Below are positions 40,415 to 64,000 of a stretch of 64,000 bases of DNA, in pieces. The notes beneath the pieces are model-generated. The model was not told the DNA's origin. It ran no database searches and saw only the letters and a program-made list of their open reading frames with translations. Each line of letters opens with the position of its first letter. The stretch's first letter is position 1. Position numbers and translations under genes: made by a program. The stretch covers positions 124,001 through 188,000 of the forward strand of contig SIRU01000033.1 in assembly GCA_004366385.1 (NCBI GenBank), written 5' to 3'. Source of the DNA: Actinomycetota bacterium. GTDB lineage: Bacteria; Actinomycetota; Thermoleophilia; Gaiellales; Gaiellaceae.

Positions 40415-40525
40415 GGGGGCATTGTCACTCACTGCTCTAAACACCTTTGCGACATCAGCCGATACCCGGCACAGAATGCGAGAGTTCTCATAGAAGCGGC
40501 ACAGTTCCCCTGGCCCGCGCTCGGC

Positions 40526-43500
40526 GTGCTCCTCGTCCGCGACGGTCTCGTCAGCGCCGACGATCTCGAGCGCGTGCTGCGTGAGCAGGGAGACGGTCGC
40601 GACAGCCGCTTGTCGAGCCTCCGGCTCGGCGAGGCACTCGTTCACGAAGGGCTGGTCTCCAAGGCTGAGGTCGCCCGGCTCGTCGCCGAGCAGCACGAGC
40701 TCCCGTTCGTCGACCTGGAGAGCCCCGACGCGACGGTGCCGGTCGCCTCACGCGTGCCGGAGGAGCTCGCACGCCGCCACTCCGCACTCCCGATCCGCGT
40801 CTTCCCCGACGGCTCCCTGCTCGTCGTCGTGGCCGACCCGACCAGGCTCGGCTGCTTCGACGAGATCCGCGGCGCGGCGGGCGTCCCGGTCCGGTTCGCC
40901 GTCGCCGCCGCGGAGGAGATCGAGGCCGCGATCGACGCCGCGGCCGCGCGTGGGCTCTTCGGCGTAGGCACCGCGACCGACGCGAGCCCTCCGGAGAGCA
41001 CGCCGCCCGGGCCGCCGACGCCGATCCTCGGCCTCGCCGCCTTCGGGCCCGACGAGCCCCCCGTGACGAGCTTCGAGCGGGCGTGGCCGGCGTTCGGCTC
41101 GCTGCTGCTGCGGGACGGTCTCGTCACGGCGGAGGAGCTGGAGACCGCGCTCGCCCAGCAGCGGCTGTCGGCCACCCGTCGCCTCGGCGAGATCCTCGTC
41201 GCACGCGGTTCGCTCTCGGACGACCAGGTGGCGCGGATCCTCGCGGAGCAGCACGAGCTGCCGTTCGTCGAGCTCGACACCCGTGACCTGGACGCCGAGA
41301 CCGCGAGGCGCCTCCCGGCCGAGGTCGCCCGAGAGCACTCCGCGATCCCGATCGCGACGGGCTCCGACGGCTCGCTCCTGGTCGCAGTCGCCGACCCGAC
41401 GAGCGCGCTCTCGTCCGAGGAGCTCCGTTCCGTCCTGGGCGCGCCGCTCCGCTTCGCGGTCGCCACGCACGACGCGATCGCAGCGGCCATCGACGCGGTC
41501 TCGGGACCGGAGCTGACCCTCGCCGTGTACCCACTCGAGGCCGAGGCCGAGGCCGAGGCGGAGGCCGAGGCCGACGGTCCCGCGGCGCCTGACGGCGACG
41601 GTGAACCCACCACTGCCTCCGCGCTAGATGACCTTCCGCCGCTGCTGCTCGCACAGCCGGTACAGGAAGCCGAGGACGGCGTCGAAGCGGACGTGCCCGT
41701 CGAGGAAGCTTCGCTCGAGACCCAGGCCGCGGAGGGCGCCGACGTCGTCGAGCTCGTCGAGCTCGCGGACCGTGAGGACTTGGGCATCACCTCCGAGGCC
41801 GAGACGGTGGAGGCAGAGAGTGACCACGCCGAGGCCGCCGCAGTCGAGCCGCTCGACGCCGACGTCGACACGGCCGAGGTCGAGCCGAGATTCGCCCTCG
41901 CGCACGAGCCGCTCGGCTTCGAGCCGGTCGAGTCAATCGCCGAGCCCACGGCGGAGGTCGTGGAGGAGGAGCCGAAGCTCGAGGAGGCCGGCGCCGAGAC
42001 CTGGACGCCGGCTGGGGACGAGCCCGATGCGCCCTCCTTCGAGCCGCTGGACGCAGACGTCGAGCCGGTCGCCGAGGCCGTCGAGGAGGAGCCCGAGCTC
42101 CCCGCAGCCGAAACCGCACTCGAGCCTGACGCCGAGGCCTGGGCACGTACCGACGACGAGACCGATCCCGAGGCGATCTCGTTCGAGCCGCTCGAGAGCG
42201 ACGCCGATCCGGTCACCGAGGCCGTCGAGGGCGAGCTCGGACCTCCGGAGGACGAGGCCGCCGTCGTGGCTTGGGCGCCGGACGAGGACGACACCCCGCC
42301 GGAGCCGTTCTCCTTCGGATCGCTCGAGAACGAGCCGGAGCGCCCCGAGGCTGAGACCGACCCCGATCCCTTCCCCTTCGAGCCGCTCGAGGCACACGTC
42401 GAGTCGGCCACCGAGGCCGTCGAGGACGAGCCGGAGCTCGCCGAGGCCGAGACCGTCGTCGAAGACGAGACCGAGCCGGAGCCGCTCCCCTTCGAGTGGT
42501 TCGTCGACGACGAGGCGCCGGACGCGGACACAGTGGCGCCGTTCTCAACCGAGGAGCGCGCTCCCGAGGTCGTCGAGGCGGCTGTCGAGGTCGCGTCGAC
42601 GGAGACACTCGAGCCGACCTCGCCCATCGTCCACGCGCTCGAGCGCGCGATCGCGCAGGGCGCGTCGGCCGTGCACGTCACTCCGACGCCCGACGGGCTC
42701 GTCGTCCGCGCGCGCGTCGACGGCGATGTCCGCGAGCTCGAGCGCATTCCCGGCACGCCGTCGGCCGTTGCGACCCATCTCTCCGACCTCGCTGCCTCGG
42801 GTCGCGTGACGCTCGACGGCGAGGAGGCGACGGCTGAGCTCCGCTTCGTCGTGCTCCCCACCGTGCGCGGCGTCCGCGCGACGTTCCGCCTCGTGAAGGA
42901 CTCCACGGCCCCGCGCACGCTCGCGGAGCTGGTGGGCGACGCGTTCGACGCGGTCGCGGAGGCGTTGCATCGTCCCGGCCTGGTCGTGGTCGGAGGCCCG
43001 CCGGGAAGCGGGACGACGACCACCCTGTACGCGGCGCTCGAAGAGCTCGCCGGCGACTCGGTCGCGCTCACGATCGAGGATCCCGTGGAGCGTCGTCTCG
43101 TGGGCGTCGACCAGATCGAGGTCGACCTTCGAGCCGGCCTCACCTACACCGCGGGCCTGCACGCCATCCTCCGCTCGGACCCCGACGTCGTGGGGATCGG
43201 CGAGCTCGCCGACCCGGAGACGGCGGCGCTCGCCGCGCGGGCCGCGAGCGAGGGCAAGCGCGTGCTCGCGACCGTCGGCGCGGACGGCGCTGCGGGCGCC
43301 GTGCGGCGCCTGCTCGACCACGGCGTCGATCCGGCAGTGCTCGCCCCGTCACTCTCGGGCGTCCTCTCCCAGCGGCTCGTGCGCAGGATCTGCACCGACT
43401 GCCGGGAGGCCTACTACGCGACCGCCGAGGAGCTCGTCGACCTCGGCCTCGGCGTCGAGGAGGGCGGCAGCCGCCTGCTCGGCCGCGGCAGCGGCTGCGA

Positions 43501-43708
43501 GAGCTGCGACGGCACGGGGCATCGCGGCCACGTCGCCGTCTTCGAGGTTCTTCCGCTCACGGACGACGTCGCCGCACAGATCGCCGCAGGCGCCACGGCG
43601 CACGCGATCGAGGAAGCGGCCGTCGCCGCGGGCATGCGCACCCTCCGCGAGGGTGCCGTCCGGCTCTGCCTCGAGGGCGTGACGACCGCGGACCAGGCAC
43701 GCCCCTAG
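40526..43708 (+). CDS. PilB/GspE-like pseudo-ATPase with two MshEN domains and acidic repeat linker
   Basis: A 1060-residue paralog of the PilB next door. Two MshEN (GspE N-terminal) domains lie at about residues 1-147 and 190-330. A Glu/Ala/Pro-rich linker (about 335-690) follows, with five degenerate repeats beginning FEPL. The C-terminal ATPase domain starts near 699. Walker A reads [10 protein letters not shown], with Thr830 for the essential Lys, and the HTxSA-type His box is VGADGAA without His. IEDPVE, GEL and the four zinc Cys (CTDC, CESC) are kept. ATP hydrolysis is unlikely; a structural or c-di-GMP-sensing partner of PilB is plausible. Homology to PilB extends upstream to an ATA at 40490. 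Confidence 0.85.
41537..41572 (+). repeat. GAGGCC hexanucleotide repeat inside the pilB-like gene
   Basis: Six tandem units, one with a single change, encoding Glu-Ala repeats at the start of the acidic linker. Length change by whole units would keep the frame. Confidence 0.75.
41918..42505 (+). repeat. Degenerate coding repeats in the acidic linker
   Basis: About five in-frame units of roughly 40-45 codons, each opening with FEPL/FEPV/FGSL/FEWF-like residues and often followed by a TEAVE.EPEL segment. They lie at residues 465-660 of the pilB-like protein and encode a highly negative, probably unfolded stretch. Confidence 0.6.
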
Positions 43709-43771
43709 CTCCCCGGGCGACGCGAGCGTCGACTCACGGTCGGCCCGCCCACGGCCGATATTCCAGTCGTC

Positions 43772-45460
43772 ATGGAAGCTGCCCAGCACTCGTGGCCCTC
43801 GCTCGGTGGGCTTCTCCTCCGCGACGGGCTCGTGTCCAGGGAGGATCTCGAGGCGGCGCTCGTCGAGCAGCGTGAGTCGGGCCGGCGCCTGGGCGAGATC
43901 CTCGCCGAGCGAGACCTCGTCACGCGCACGCAGATCGCCCGCGTGCTCGCCGAGCAGTTCGAGCTGCCGTTCGTCGACCTCGCAGAGTCGGAGGTGGAAG
44001 TCGACGCCGCAGCGCTCCTGCCGGAGGAGCTCGCGCGTCGCTACTGCGCCCTCCCGGTGAGCGTGGACCCGGAGGGCGCGCTGCTCGTCGCGGTCGCCGA
44101 CCCCACCAACGTCCTCCACTCGGACGAGCTCCGGCTCGCGCTCGACGTGCCGCTCCGCTTCGCCGTGGCCGCACCGGACGCGATCGACGCGGCGATCGCC
44201 TTCGTCCACCAGCAGGCGTTGACGCTCGTCGACGAGCAGACCGAGGAGCCGAGCGACGCCTCACTCGGCATCCACGACGTCGAAGAGGGCGACGTCGCGA
44301 CTCCTGCGGTGTCCCAGGTCAACAAGACGATCCAGCGCGCGCTCGCGCTCGGCGCCTCGGACATCCACTTCACGCCACAGCCGCGCGGGCTGGTCGTGCG
44401 GGCACGCGTGGACGGCGTCGTCCGGGAGCTCGCCGCGATCCCCGGCTCGCACCAGGGCGCGGTCACCAGCCGCCTCAAGGTCATGGGCCGGCTCGACATC
44501 GCCGAGCGGCGCGCCCCCCAGGACGGGCGCGTGGCCGTCAAGACCGGAGGCCAGACCGTCGACCTGCGCATGGCGGTCCTGCCCACGAAGTTCGGCGAGA
44601 AGGTCACGCTTCGCGTGCTCAACCAGGCCGCCGCGCCCGACTCGCTCTCCGAGCTCTGCATGGCGGCGGACACGGAGGAGATCCTCCGCAAGGCCATCCG
44701 GCAGCCTTACGGCGCGATCCTCACCTGCGGCCCGACCGGCAGCGGGAAGACGACGACGCTGTACGCCGCGCTCCAGGAGCTGAACACGCCCGAGCGCACG
44801 ATCATGACCATCGAGGACCCGGTCGAGTATGTGACCACGGGGGTCGACCAGGTCGAGGTCAACGTCCGGGCGGGCCTCACGTTCGCGCGTGGGCTGCGGA
44901 CCATCCTCCGCTCCGACCCCGACACGATCCTGGTCGGCGAGATTCGCGACGAGGAGACCGCGCAGATCGCGATCCGGGCAGCGATGACCGGCCACCTCGT
45001 GCTCTCCACGCTGCATACGCAGTCGGCGGCCGCGGCGATCCACCGGCTCACCGACATGGGCGTGGAGCCGGGGCTCGTCGCGAGCACCGTCACGTGCCTC
45101 GTCGCCCAGCGCCTCGTCCGCCGCATCTGCCCCGACTGCCGGGAGGAGTACACCGCAGGCGCGGAGGAGCGCGCCGTCCTCGTGAAGCCGCGCCAGAAGG
45201 TGCCGAAGCTCGCGCGTGGCACCGGCTGCACGGCGTGCGGCGAGACCGGCTTCCGGGGGCGGGTCGGGCTGTTCGAGGTGCTGCCGCTCACCGACGACAT
45301 CCGGGAGCTCGCGGCCGCCCGCGCTTCGACGGCCGAGATCCAGAGCCTCGCCGTCACCGCCGGCATGCGGACGCTGCGCGAGGACGGCGTCCGGCTCTGC
45401 CTCGAGGGCGTGACGACGACGGACGAGGTCCGCCGCGTCGCCGGCGACTGGAACGCGTAG
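43772..45460 (+). CDS. pilB: Type IV pilus/type II secretion assembly ATPase PilB/GspE
   Basis: Hexameric motor that drives pilin or pseudopilin assembly at the inner face of the membrane. The 562-residue protein has one MshEN domain (about 1-150, a known c-di-GMP-binding fold in related ATPases), then the ATPase domain with Walker A GPTGSGKTTT (Lys326), Asp box TIEDPVEY, Walker B ILVGEIRDEET, His box STLHTQSA and the tetracysteine zinc motif (CPDC, CTAC). All catalytic parts are intact. The ATG has no clear ribosome binding site. No pilC, pilT or pilin gene is in the window. Confidence 0.95.
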   Translation: MEAAQHSWPSLGGLLLRDGLVSREDLEAALVEQRESGRRLGEILAERDLVTRTQIARVLAEQFELPFVDLAESEVEVDAAALLPEELARRYCALPVSVDPEGALLVAVADPTNVLHSDELRLALDVPLRFAVAAPDAIDAAIAFVHQQALTLVDEQTEEPSDASLGIHDVEEGDVATPAVSQVNKTIQRALALGASDIHFTPQPRGLVVRARVDGVVRELAAIPGSHQGAVTSRLKVMGRLDIAERRAPQDGRVAVKTGGQTVDLRMAVLPTKFGEKVTLRVLNQAAAPDSLSELCMAADTEEILRKAIRQPYGAILTCGPTGSGKTTTLYAALQELNTPERTIMTIEDPVEYVTTGVDQVEVNVRAGLTFARGLRTILRSDPDTILVGEIRDEETAQIAIRAAMTGHLVLSTLHTQSAAAAIHRLTDMGVEPGLVASTVTCLVAQRLVRRICPDCREEYTAGAEERAVLVKPRQKVPKLARGTGCTACGETGFRGRVGLFEVLPLTDDIRELAAARASTAEIQSLAVTAGMRTLREDGVRLCLEGVTTTDEVRRVAGDWNA

Positions 45461-62858: not shown

Positions 62859-62965
62859 GTGCTGCACCGGCTCGGGCACCCCGGCGCCGCCGCGCTCACG
62901 TCGTGCTTCGTGAGAAAGCTCTAATCTCCATCGGCTCTCCCGCCGATACATGCCGTGTGCGTGAC

Positions 62966-64000
62966 ATGACACCTCGTGCATATCGGCCCGCCGGATTGAA
63001 GCGGTCCGTCGCCCAGCTCTGGACGTTCGTGGTCGCGTCGGCCGCGATCCTCGCAGCCGGCGCCCTCGTGCTGTCGTCGCTCCTCACCCAGAGCTTCCGC
63101 GACCAGGTCCTCGACGACAGCGCGCAGGAGGTGGGCCTGTTCGCGAACTCCGTGCTCGCGCCGACGCTGGTTCGCGGGAACCGTCTCGTGGTGCGCGGGA
63201 GCGATCTCACCCGGCTCGGGCGCACGATTCGCACTCCGGAGGACTTCGCGGGCGTCGCCGTGTGGACGCGAGAGGGGTCGCTCGTCTTCTCGACGCTCCC
63301 GGGACGCCGTCAGCTGACGGCGCGCCGGGACGTGGAGGCAGTCTTTCGGAGCGGTACGCCGTTCGCGGAGACGACGGAGGTGCCGAGGCGGGACGGGACC
63401 GCCACGAGCCGCTTCCTCTCCGTCTGGGCCCCCCTCACGGCGGCGAGCGGCCGGCCCGTCGCCGCCCTCCAGGTCCTGCTGCACCCGGACGAGCTCGATG
63501 CCAGCATCGCGCGCGCCACCCGCACGGTATGGATCGCCGTCGCTGTCGTCTTCGCCGTGCTCTGGCTGTTCCTCGCAGGGCTCGGACACGGCGCCGCCGT
63601 CCGCCTCACGCGCCAGAACGAGGCCCTGGAGAATCGGTCACGCGAGCTGCTCGACGCGTCTCGCGAGGTGGAGCGCAACCTTCTCGGCACGATCGAGACG
63701 CTGAACGCGGCGGTCGAGGCGCGCGACCCGTACACGGCCGGCCACTCGCTCCGCGTTCGCAGCGTCGCGCTCGCGGTCGGCCGCGAGCTCGGGCTGACGG
63801 CGCCGCAGCTCGGCTCCTTGGCGACGTCGGCGCTGTTCCACGACGTCGGCAAGATCGGGATCCCGGACTCGGTGCTCACCAAGCCGGGTGCGCTGGAGCC
63901 GGCCGAGGCGGCCGTCATGCGCGAGCACGTCGACCGCGGCGCCGAGATCGTCTCGAAGGTGTCGTCGTTCGAAGGCTCGGTGAGCGCCATCAGGCACCAC
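62966..64000 (+). CDS. Membrane-anchored HD-GYP domain protein, N-terminal part
   Basis: The first 345 residues are here; the gene runs off the right edge. A membrane helix (about 17-38), an extracytoplasmic sensor region of about 145 residues and a second helix (about 187-206) lead through a short coiled linker into an HD-GYP-type domain: EARDPYTAGHSLRVRSVALAVGREL and LFHDVGKIGIPDSVLTKPG, with metal ligands His292 and Asp293. Such proteins hydrolyse c-di-GMP. The GYP motif itself lies beyond the window. The ATG at 62966 starts the frame just before the first helix. Confidence 0.88.
   Translation, partial: MTPRAYRPAGLKRSVAQLWTFVVASAAILAAGALVLSSLLTQSFRDQVLDDSAQEVGLFANSVLAPTLVRGNRLVVRGSDLTRLGRTIRTPEDFAGVAVWTREGSLVFSTLPGRRQLTARRDVEAVFRSGTPFAETTEVPRRDGTATSRFLSVWAPLTAASGRPVAALQVLLHPDELDASIARATRTVWIAVAVVFAVLWLFLAGLGHGAAVRLTRQNEALENRSRELLDASREVERNLLGTIETLNAAVEARDPYTAGHSLRVRSVALAVGRELGLTAPQLGSLATSALFHDVGKIGIPDSVLTKPGALEPAEAAVMREHVDRGAEIVSKVSSFEGSVSAIRHH

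Follow-up and report, generated by a model that had tools for sequence, protein, structure and literature searches.

A predicted pseudo-ATPase paralog of the pilus motor PilB, apparently maintained in a genus of Gaiellaceae

A gene on contig SIRU01000033.1 of an Actinomycetota assembly (GCA_004366385.1; Gaiellaceae) encodes a protein that, judged by its sequence, is a pseudo-ATPase of the PilB family, having lost the Walker A lysine, the His box and an arginine-bearing segment. Here, we analysed the 64,000-nucleotide stretch that contains it (positions 124,001 to 188,000 of the contig, hereafter the window) together with related genomes. From comparison of the coding sequences, this pseudo-PilB behaves as a maintained pseudoenzyme under purifying selection, with fast change and some losses. 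We favor, with modest confidence, the reading that it has been maintained as a type IV pilus pseudo-motor, which would regulate extension rather than power it. The gene, its domains and motifs and its neighbor are located in the window as follows:

40526–43708, + strand: pseudo-PilB gene of 1060 codons, counted from GTG as the first mechanical start, with no internal stop
40490–40987, + strand: MshEN domain 1, with half-motif I lacking its Arg and a spacer of 11 residues, not 5
41084–41545, + strand: MshEN domain 2, with AFG for RLG in half-motif I, half-motif II intact and a spacer of 6
41561–42595, + strand: acidic low-complexity linker of about 345 residues (E 23%, A 17%, P 12%, D 10%)
42584–43705, + strand: ATPase-like domain with a predicted PilB fold (pLDDT 87; nearest solved structure, Thermus thermophilus PilF)
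43013–43015, + strand: Walker A Lys replaced by Thr (Thr830, ACG), from sequence and alignment
43250–43285, + strand: former His box, both His lost, from sequence and alignment
43388–43507, + strand: zinc cysteines CTDC ... CESC, kept, from sequence and alignment
43772–45460, + strand: active PilB paralog with one MshEN domain and intact Walker A, Walker B and His box; sister to the pseudoenzyme clade

The product belongs by sequence to the PilB/GspE-type secretion ATPase family, with a T2SSE domain identified by Pfam (E = 1.4e-64). Pfam also placed two MshEN domains in it and one in the product of the neighboring gene. The original prediction had described a full PilB layout with C-terminal zinc cysteines, and two MshEN domains where the active copy has one; both descriptions held, with the T2SSE domain, the MshEN domains and the tetracysteine site all present. 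The predicted ATPase-like domain matched PilF with a TM-score of 0.87 (Foldseek), and the predicted N-terminal model shows two MshEN-type units, with a profile match to MshE (5htl). Pseudo-PilB thus resembles PilB and T. thermophilus PilF in the order of the MshEN (GSPII), N2 and C1/C2 domains, in the zinc site and in the predicted fold, and PilF, too, has more than one MshEN-type domain. It differs from both in the loss of the catalytic lysine, His box and Arg segment, in its long acidic linker, and in being a second copy in addition to the genome's complete main PilB.

The Walker A motif of the active neighbor reads GPTGSGKTTT, and it is the lysine of this motif that is replaced by threonine in pseudo-PilB, exactly at the codon originally predicted. 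The His box, GHLVLSTLH in the active neighbor, has become GKRVLATVG, so that the predicted loss extends to both histidines. The Arg-bearing segment RLKVMGRLDIAERRAPQDGR between N2 and C1 is shortened and mostly gone, and it was deleted or altered in all six of the pseudoenzymes compared. The Walker B glutamate and the Asp box are retained, and the four zinc cysteines are invariant across all 33 aligned rows.

Orthologs were found in six relatives from the same genus (G004, G005, G006, G007, G008 and G010), giving seven copies with that in the window. They share a locus with dtd on one side and transglutaminase, DUF58, MoxR and coaBC genes on the other. In G004, G007 and G010 the contig stops within the gene, leaving one flank visible, and the locus counts leave out G002, G003 and G009. 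The domain layout is common to all orthologs with enough sequence. The orthologs of all six relatives are degenerate, each in its own way; the window copy and those of five genus members keep open frames, at about 42–69% identity. The Walker A sequence is GPVGSGTTTT in G005 and G007, GSAGNGCSTT in G010 and PGSGLTTT in G004, while the corresponding position in G006 reads GPSSSVRADT, with no recognizable P-loop. The lysine is gone from six of the seven genus copies, its position being occupied by T (three times), C or L, or lying in the unrecognizable loop; the seventh, G008, has it intact. A sequencing or assembly error at the Walker codon in the window was ruled out, since the genus orthologs are degenerate as well.

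According to the original prediction, orthologs with an intact Walker lysine would indicate a sequencing error, and frameshifts or stops in relatives a decaying pseudogene. Both signs appeared in part. The ortholog in G008 has the lysine and an intact P-loop, yet it has lost the Arg segment and the first His. The G004 copy has two frameshifts, near the end of the contig, and in G001 the locus is intact and the gene cleanly lost; the five other frames are open. Other genera of the family have one or two PilB genes with intact motifs at this position, barring G109 and G038. In G109 (L106), the Walker lysine of the orphan gene, pilB2, is changed to Arg and the remaining motifs are intact, while G038 (L100) has an intact-type copy of pilB2 with a frameshift; the damage in the two genomes arose independently.

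In a tree of the ATPase domains, the pseudoenzymes formed one clade (100/98), the sister of which was the window's active neighbor (100/98), and copies from genus g30 came next. Both pseudoenzyme MshEN domains fell in one group of the MshEN tree, and domain 1 of the pseudoenzymes has a common 6-residue insertion between the half-motifs. The trees and this insertion therefore point to a duplication, at the base of the genus or earlier, that gave an active copy and a second that lost catalysis. Among genus members with a readable locus, only the window genome has an active copy beside the pseudoenzyme.

PilC-family matches occurred only in the main pilus cluster and in a second, Tad-like-looking cluster. 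The possibility of a second pilus gene set beside pilB2 was therefore ruled out, and pilB2 is considered an orphan. The main PilB of the genus keeps its Walker A motif. Two further candidates were set aside: a long ORF on C1 (841 codons), considered as a third PilB, is a PilT-type ATPase by its sequence, and for a protein on G001:C122 with MshEN-like segments Pfam makes no MshEN call.

The beginning of the gene in the window differs from that in the relatives at two features:

40490–40492, + strand: position of the relatives' ATG or GTG start, here ATA (by homology, IEAAQFPWP compared with MEAAPHPWP)
40476–40493, + strand: out-of-frame ATG at the relatives' start spacing (ATG CGA GAG TTC TCA TAG), from comparison of upstream regions

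Homology with the relatives thus places the true start at 40490. The promoter of the window copy is intact, the ATG at 40476 is separated from the homologous coding start at 40490 by a difference of 14 bases, and initiation at GTG 40526 would truncate the first half-motif of MshEN domain 1. Either a rare start is used in the window copy, or GTG 40526 is used, or the gene is poorly translated. As the window genome is the one that still has the active paralog, the dead copy may be in the process of being lost there. The stop of the five-codon frame at 40476–40493 overlaps the ATA at 40490, and the frame contains an inverted repeat, GAGA-GT-TCTC.

Upstream of both pilB2 paralogs, and of an HD-GYP gene near the end of the window, are sequences of the sigma28/WhiG promoter type:

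40438–40464, + strand: promoter before the pseudo-PilB gene, TAAA (40438–40441)-N16-GCCGATA (40458–40464), exact sequence
43734–43760, + strand: promoter before the active gene, TCAC-N16-GCCGATA, exact sequence
62922–62948, + strand: promoter before the HD-GYP gene, TAAT-N16-GCCGATA, exact sequence
62966–64000, + strand: HD-GYP phosphodiesterase-like gene (438 aa, extending beyond the window end), HD and GYP motifs intact

The orthologs in the genus and in g30 have TAAA-N16-GCCGATA or a near match upstream (TCAA, TCAT or TCAC; ACCGATA in G006), and the start codon follows 8–11 bases past the −10 box in all but the window pseudoenzyme. The orthologs share the N16 spacing with the main-cluster genes pilB, pilT and pilC. 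A search with TMAA-N15-17-GCCGATA gave 9 matches in the window genome, compared to 0 for the reversed control, and 49 compared to 4 over six genomes. A FliA/WhiG sigma factor scored above cut-off in all seven genomes searched (for the window genome, 289.6 bits to TIGR02479, with a cut-off of 189.6). No flagellin was found in the five genus members tested, no RsiG was found by a motif search of a few loci, and no Rfam element, such as a c-di-GMP riboswitch ahead of the pseudo-PilB gene, was found in the window.

In Rubrobacter, this promoter type (TAAA / GCCGATA) precedes type IV pilus genes and genes for diguanylate cyclases and phosphodiesterases, and c-di-GMP arms the anti-sigma factor RsiG against WhiG (Schumacher et al. 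2021, PMC8325347). The two cases are alike in having these elements before pilus and c-di-GMP turnover genes, together with a WhiG-type sigma; they differ in that no pilB is named in the main text of PMC8325347. By analogy with Rubrobacter, pseudo-PilB would belong to the pilus regulon and may be transcribed by WhiG. The WhiG-type promoters on pseudo-PilB, active PilB, main pilB, pilT and pilC, and the HD-GYP gene are new here. The original prediction had remarked that an HD-GYP gene in the window fits a c-di-GMP connection without proving one, and this gene indeed has a sigma promoter of the pilus-gene class. In G010, an HD-GYP gene with a like promoter (L131) is found on the pseudo-PilB contig. 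A putative WhiG/FliA regulon in these flagellin-free genomes (L044 (G000:C1), L108, L109, L112–L141) contains main pilB, pilT and pilC, as well as a small LuxR-type regulator (L115, L125, L128, L130) and an RpoD-like sigma (L121, L129). In the putative members, TMAA-N16-GCCGATA lies right ahead of the start, leaving very short leaders.

At least 8 strong GGDEF matches were found in the window genome. The MshEN motif was defined as two 24-residue half-motifs (RLGxx...) with a 5-residue spacer; half-motif II is complete in both pseudo-PilB domains, whereas half-motif I lacks its Arg and the spacers deviate in length (11 and 6). This Arg is missing in nearly all copies. In PilF, Ser in place of the half-motif II Arg is among the changes that prevent binding by the first GSPII domain (PMC12002112). 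The lack of Arg in half-motif I makes c-di-GMP binding doubtful. Where the original prediction had offered either a mixed motor or a c-di-GMP-sensing regulatory ring, a c-di-GMP-linked regulatory role is the best reading, and a mixed motor with the adjacent active PilB was not supported.

Selection was assessed with a branch codon model, using an in-house implementation of the MG94 type. For the ATPase domain, omega was 0.14 on the active branches and 0.19 (window), 0.21 (G010), 0.21 (G008), 0.36 (G006), 0.12 (G007) and 0.16 (G005) at the pseudoenzyme tips, values that are rough because synonymous sites are near saturation. An omega of 1 was rejected on every pseudoenzyme branch tested (2ΔlnL = 5.8–33), and the MshEN domains gave 0.12–0.22 on pseudoenzyme branches. 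G005 and G007 differ at codon positions 1, 2 and 3 by 0.20, 0.14 and 0.48; these two genomes have losses in common, and later constraint therefore acts on the dead form. Among columns invariant in the active copies, those surviving in all six pseudoenzymes were 12 of 16 in the zinc/C-terminal region, 20 of 40 in the RecA core and 9 of 25 in N2. The ATPase-domain branches of the pseudoenzymes are long (up to 1.1, compared to 0.2 for the active copy), a sign of relaxation. A decaying pseudogene would show stops or frameshifts and an omega near 1; here, five of the six relatives have open frames and omega is 0.12–0.36, the exceptions being the G004 frameshifts and the window start. The prediction of a pseudo-ATPase was borne out; across the genus its coding sequence is conserved and evolves under purifying selection.

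The main rival to a maintained regulator is slow decay, in which a redundant PilB2 that has lost its motor function is eroding, its frame kept open only through residual or recently lost constraint, and no longer has a role in the window genome. The rapid evolution of the pseudoenzyme branches speaks for it, as do the missing canonical start in the window, the frameshifted G004 copy, the clean loss in G001, and the damage to pilB2 in other genera (G038 and G109). Against it stand the open frames at such divergent identities, an omega well under 1 on each pseudoenzyme branch, the window's own included, the conserved promoter and start in G005, G006 and G008, and the retention of the zinc site, Asp box and Walker B Glu; on this evidence we regard erosion as somewhat unlikely. 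A mixed ring or regulatory pair that joins pseudo-PilB specifically to its active neighbor would suit two sister paralogs lying side by side on one strand under like promoters. It is nevertheless highly unlikely, since the pseudoenzyme has no such neighbor in G005, G006, G007, G008 and G010, and the sole genome with both copies has a damaged pseudoenzyme start codon. Given these five relatives, the originally predicted mixed motor with the adjacent PilB is not supported as a general explanation; a generally conserved partner, if any, would have to be the main PilB of the pilus cluster or another part of the pilus.

The protein might also be an ATP-independent signaling protein that acts off the pilus, for example on exopolysaccharide (EPS), resembling Myxococcus PilB in its reported nucleotide-free signaling state. 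Walker A and Walker B variants of M. xanthus PilB signal to EPS (PMC5544727), and a dead P-loop would suit a fixed nucleotide-free state; we nonetheless consider this improbable, as the surroundings of the locus revealed no EPS genes or partner and the promoter links pseudo-PilB to pilus genes. That it is still a motor, binding and hydrolysing ATP via other residues, is hardly credible. The retained Walker B Glu and Asp box, and the full P-loop in G008, would allow it, but the Walker Lys, His box and Arg segment were lost together, G006 is without a recognizable P-loop, and the changes vary between lineages, a pattern expected if catalysis is not under selection.

For the maintained pseudo-motor, we propose that pilB2, an extension ATPase gene found as an orphan between dtd and transglutaminase/coaBC, was duplicated in the genus ancestor. 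One duplicate would have acquired a second MshEN domain and the acidic linker. Its Arg segment and His box would have been lost, as would the Walker A Lys in most lineages, while the MshEN domains, the overall PilB fold and the zinc/C-terminal region were kept. Pseudo-PilB would be transcribed alongside the pilus genes from a WhiG/FliA-type promoter and would most likely bind at the base of the pilus, to the platform, the stator or the hexamer of main PilB, with no ATP hydrolysis. In that position it would tune extension by the main PilB as a brake, an adaptor or a subunit that responds to c-di-GMP. We infer both the binding to the pilus machine and the direction of the effect.

Several known systems offer partial parallels. 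In Acinetobacter baylyi, a second motor homologue, TfpB, and a PilB inhibitor, CpiA, control PilB (PMC8213720). As here, there is a second PilB homologue per cell, and a PilB-binding protein regulates extension, as pseudo-PilB may do; TfpB, however, is described as a motor, whereas pseudo-PilB is dead. ATPase-deficient M. xanthus PilB still signals to EPS, which the authors link to c-di-GMP (PMC5544727). It would share with pseudo-PilB a function without ATP hydrolysis, but it is a laboratory mutant of the pilus motor and not a natural, fixed paralog. PilU is a PilT-dependent partner ATPase (PMC13142100), a paralog relying on another pilus motor, as proposed for pseudo-PilB; it belongs to the retraction family, however, and is described as an ATPase. 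A literature search, mostly outside subscription journals, returned no paper on a pseudoATPase or degenerate Walker A in the PilB family.

Pilus extension is usually described in terms of homohexameric active motors. If our reading is correct, a natural, fixed and selectively maintained dead PilB would mean that the PilB scaffold is usable for regulation alone, and it would offer a natural case for testing whether PilB signals in its nucleotide-free state, as has been proposed. A WhiG-type promoter held in common with the pilus genes would carry the c-di-GMP/sigma/pilus link of Rubrobacter to another lineage, with a clear regulon. More tentatively, the twin-MshEN pseudo-PilB could be a genus-wide, dedicated c-di-GMP-controlled regulator of the pilus motor, under the c-di-GMP-gated sigma of the pilus, with most lineages having dropped the active parent. 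Under such a sigma, c-di-GMP would control motor synthesis as well as motor activity.

Tandem copies also occur in genus g11 (L050, L051, L052), in which two intact PilB2 genes occupy the same locus as the result of a separate duplication.
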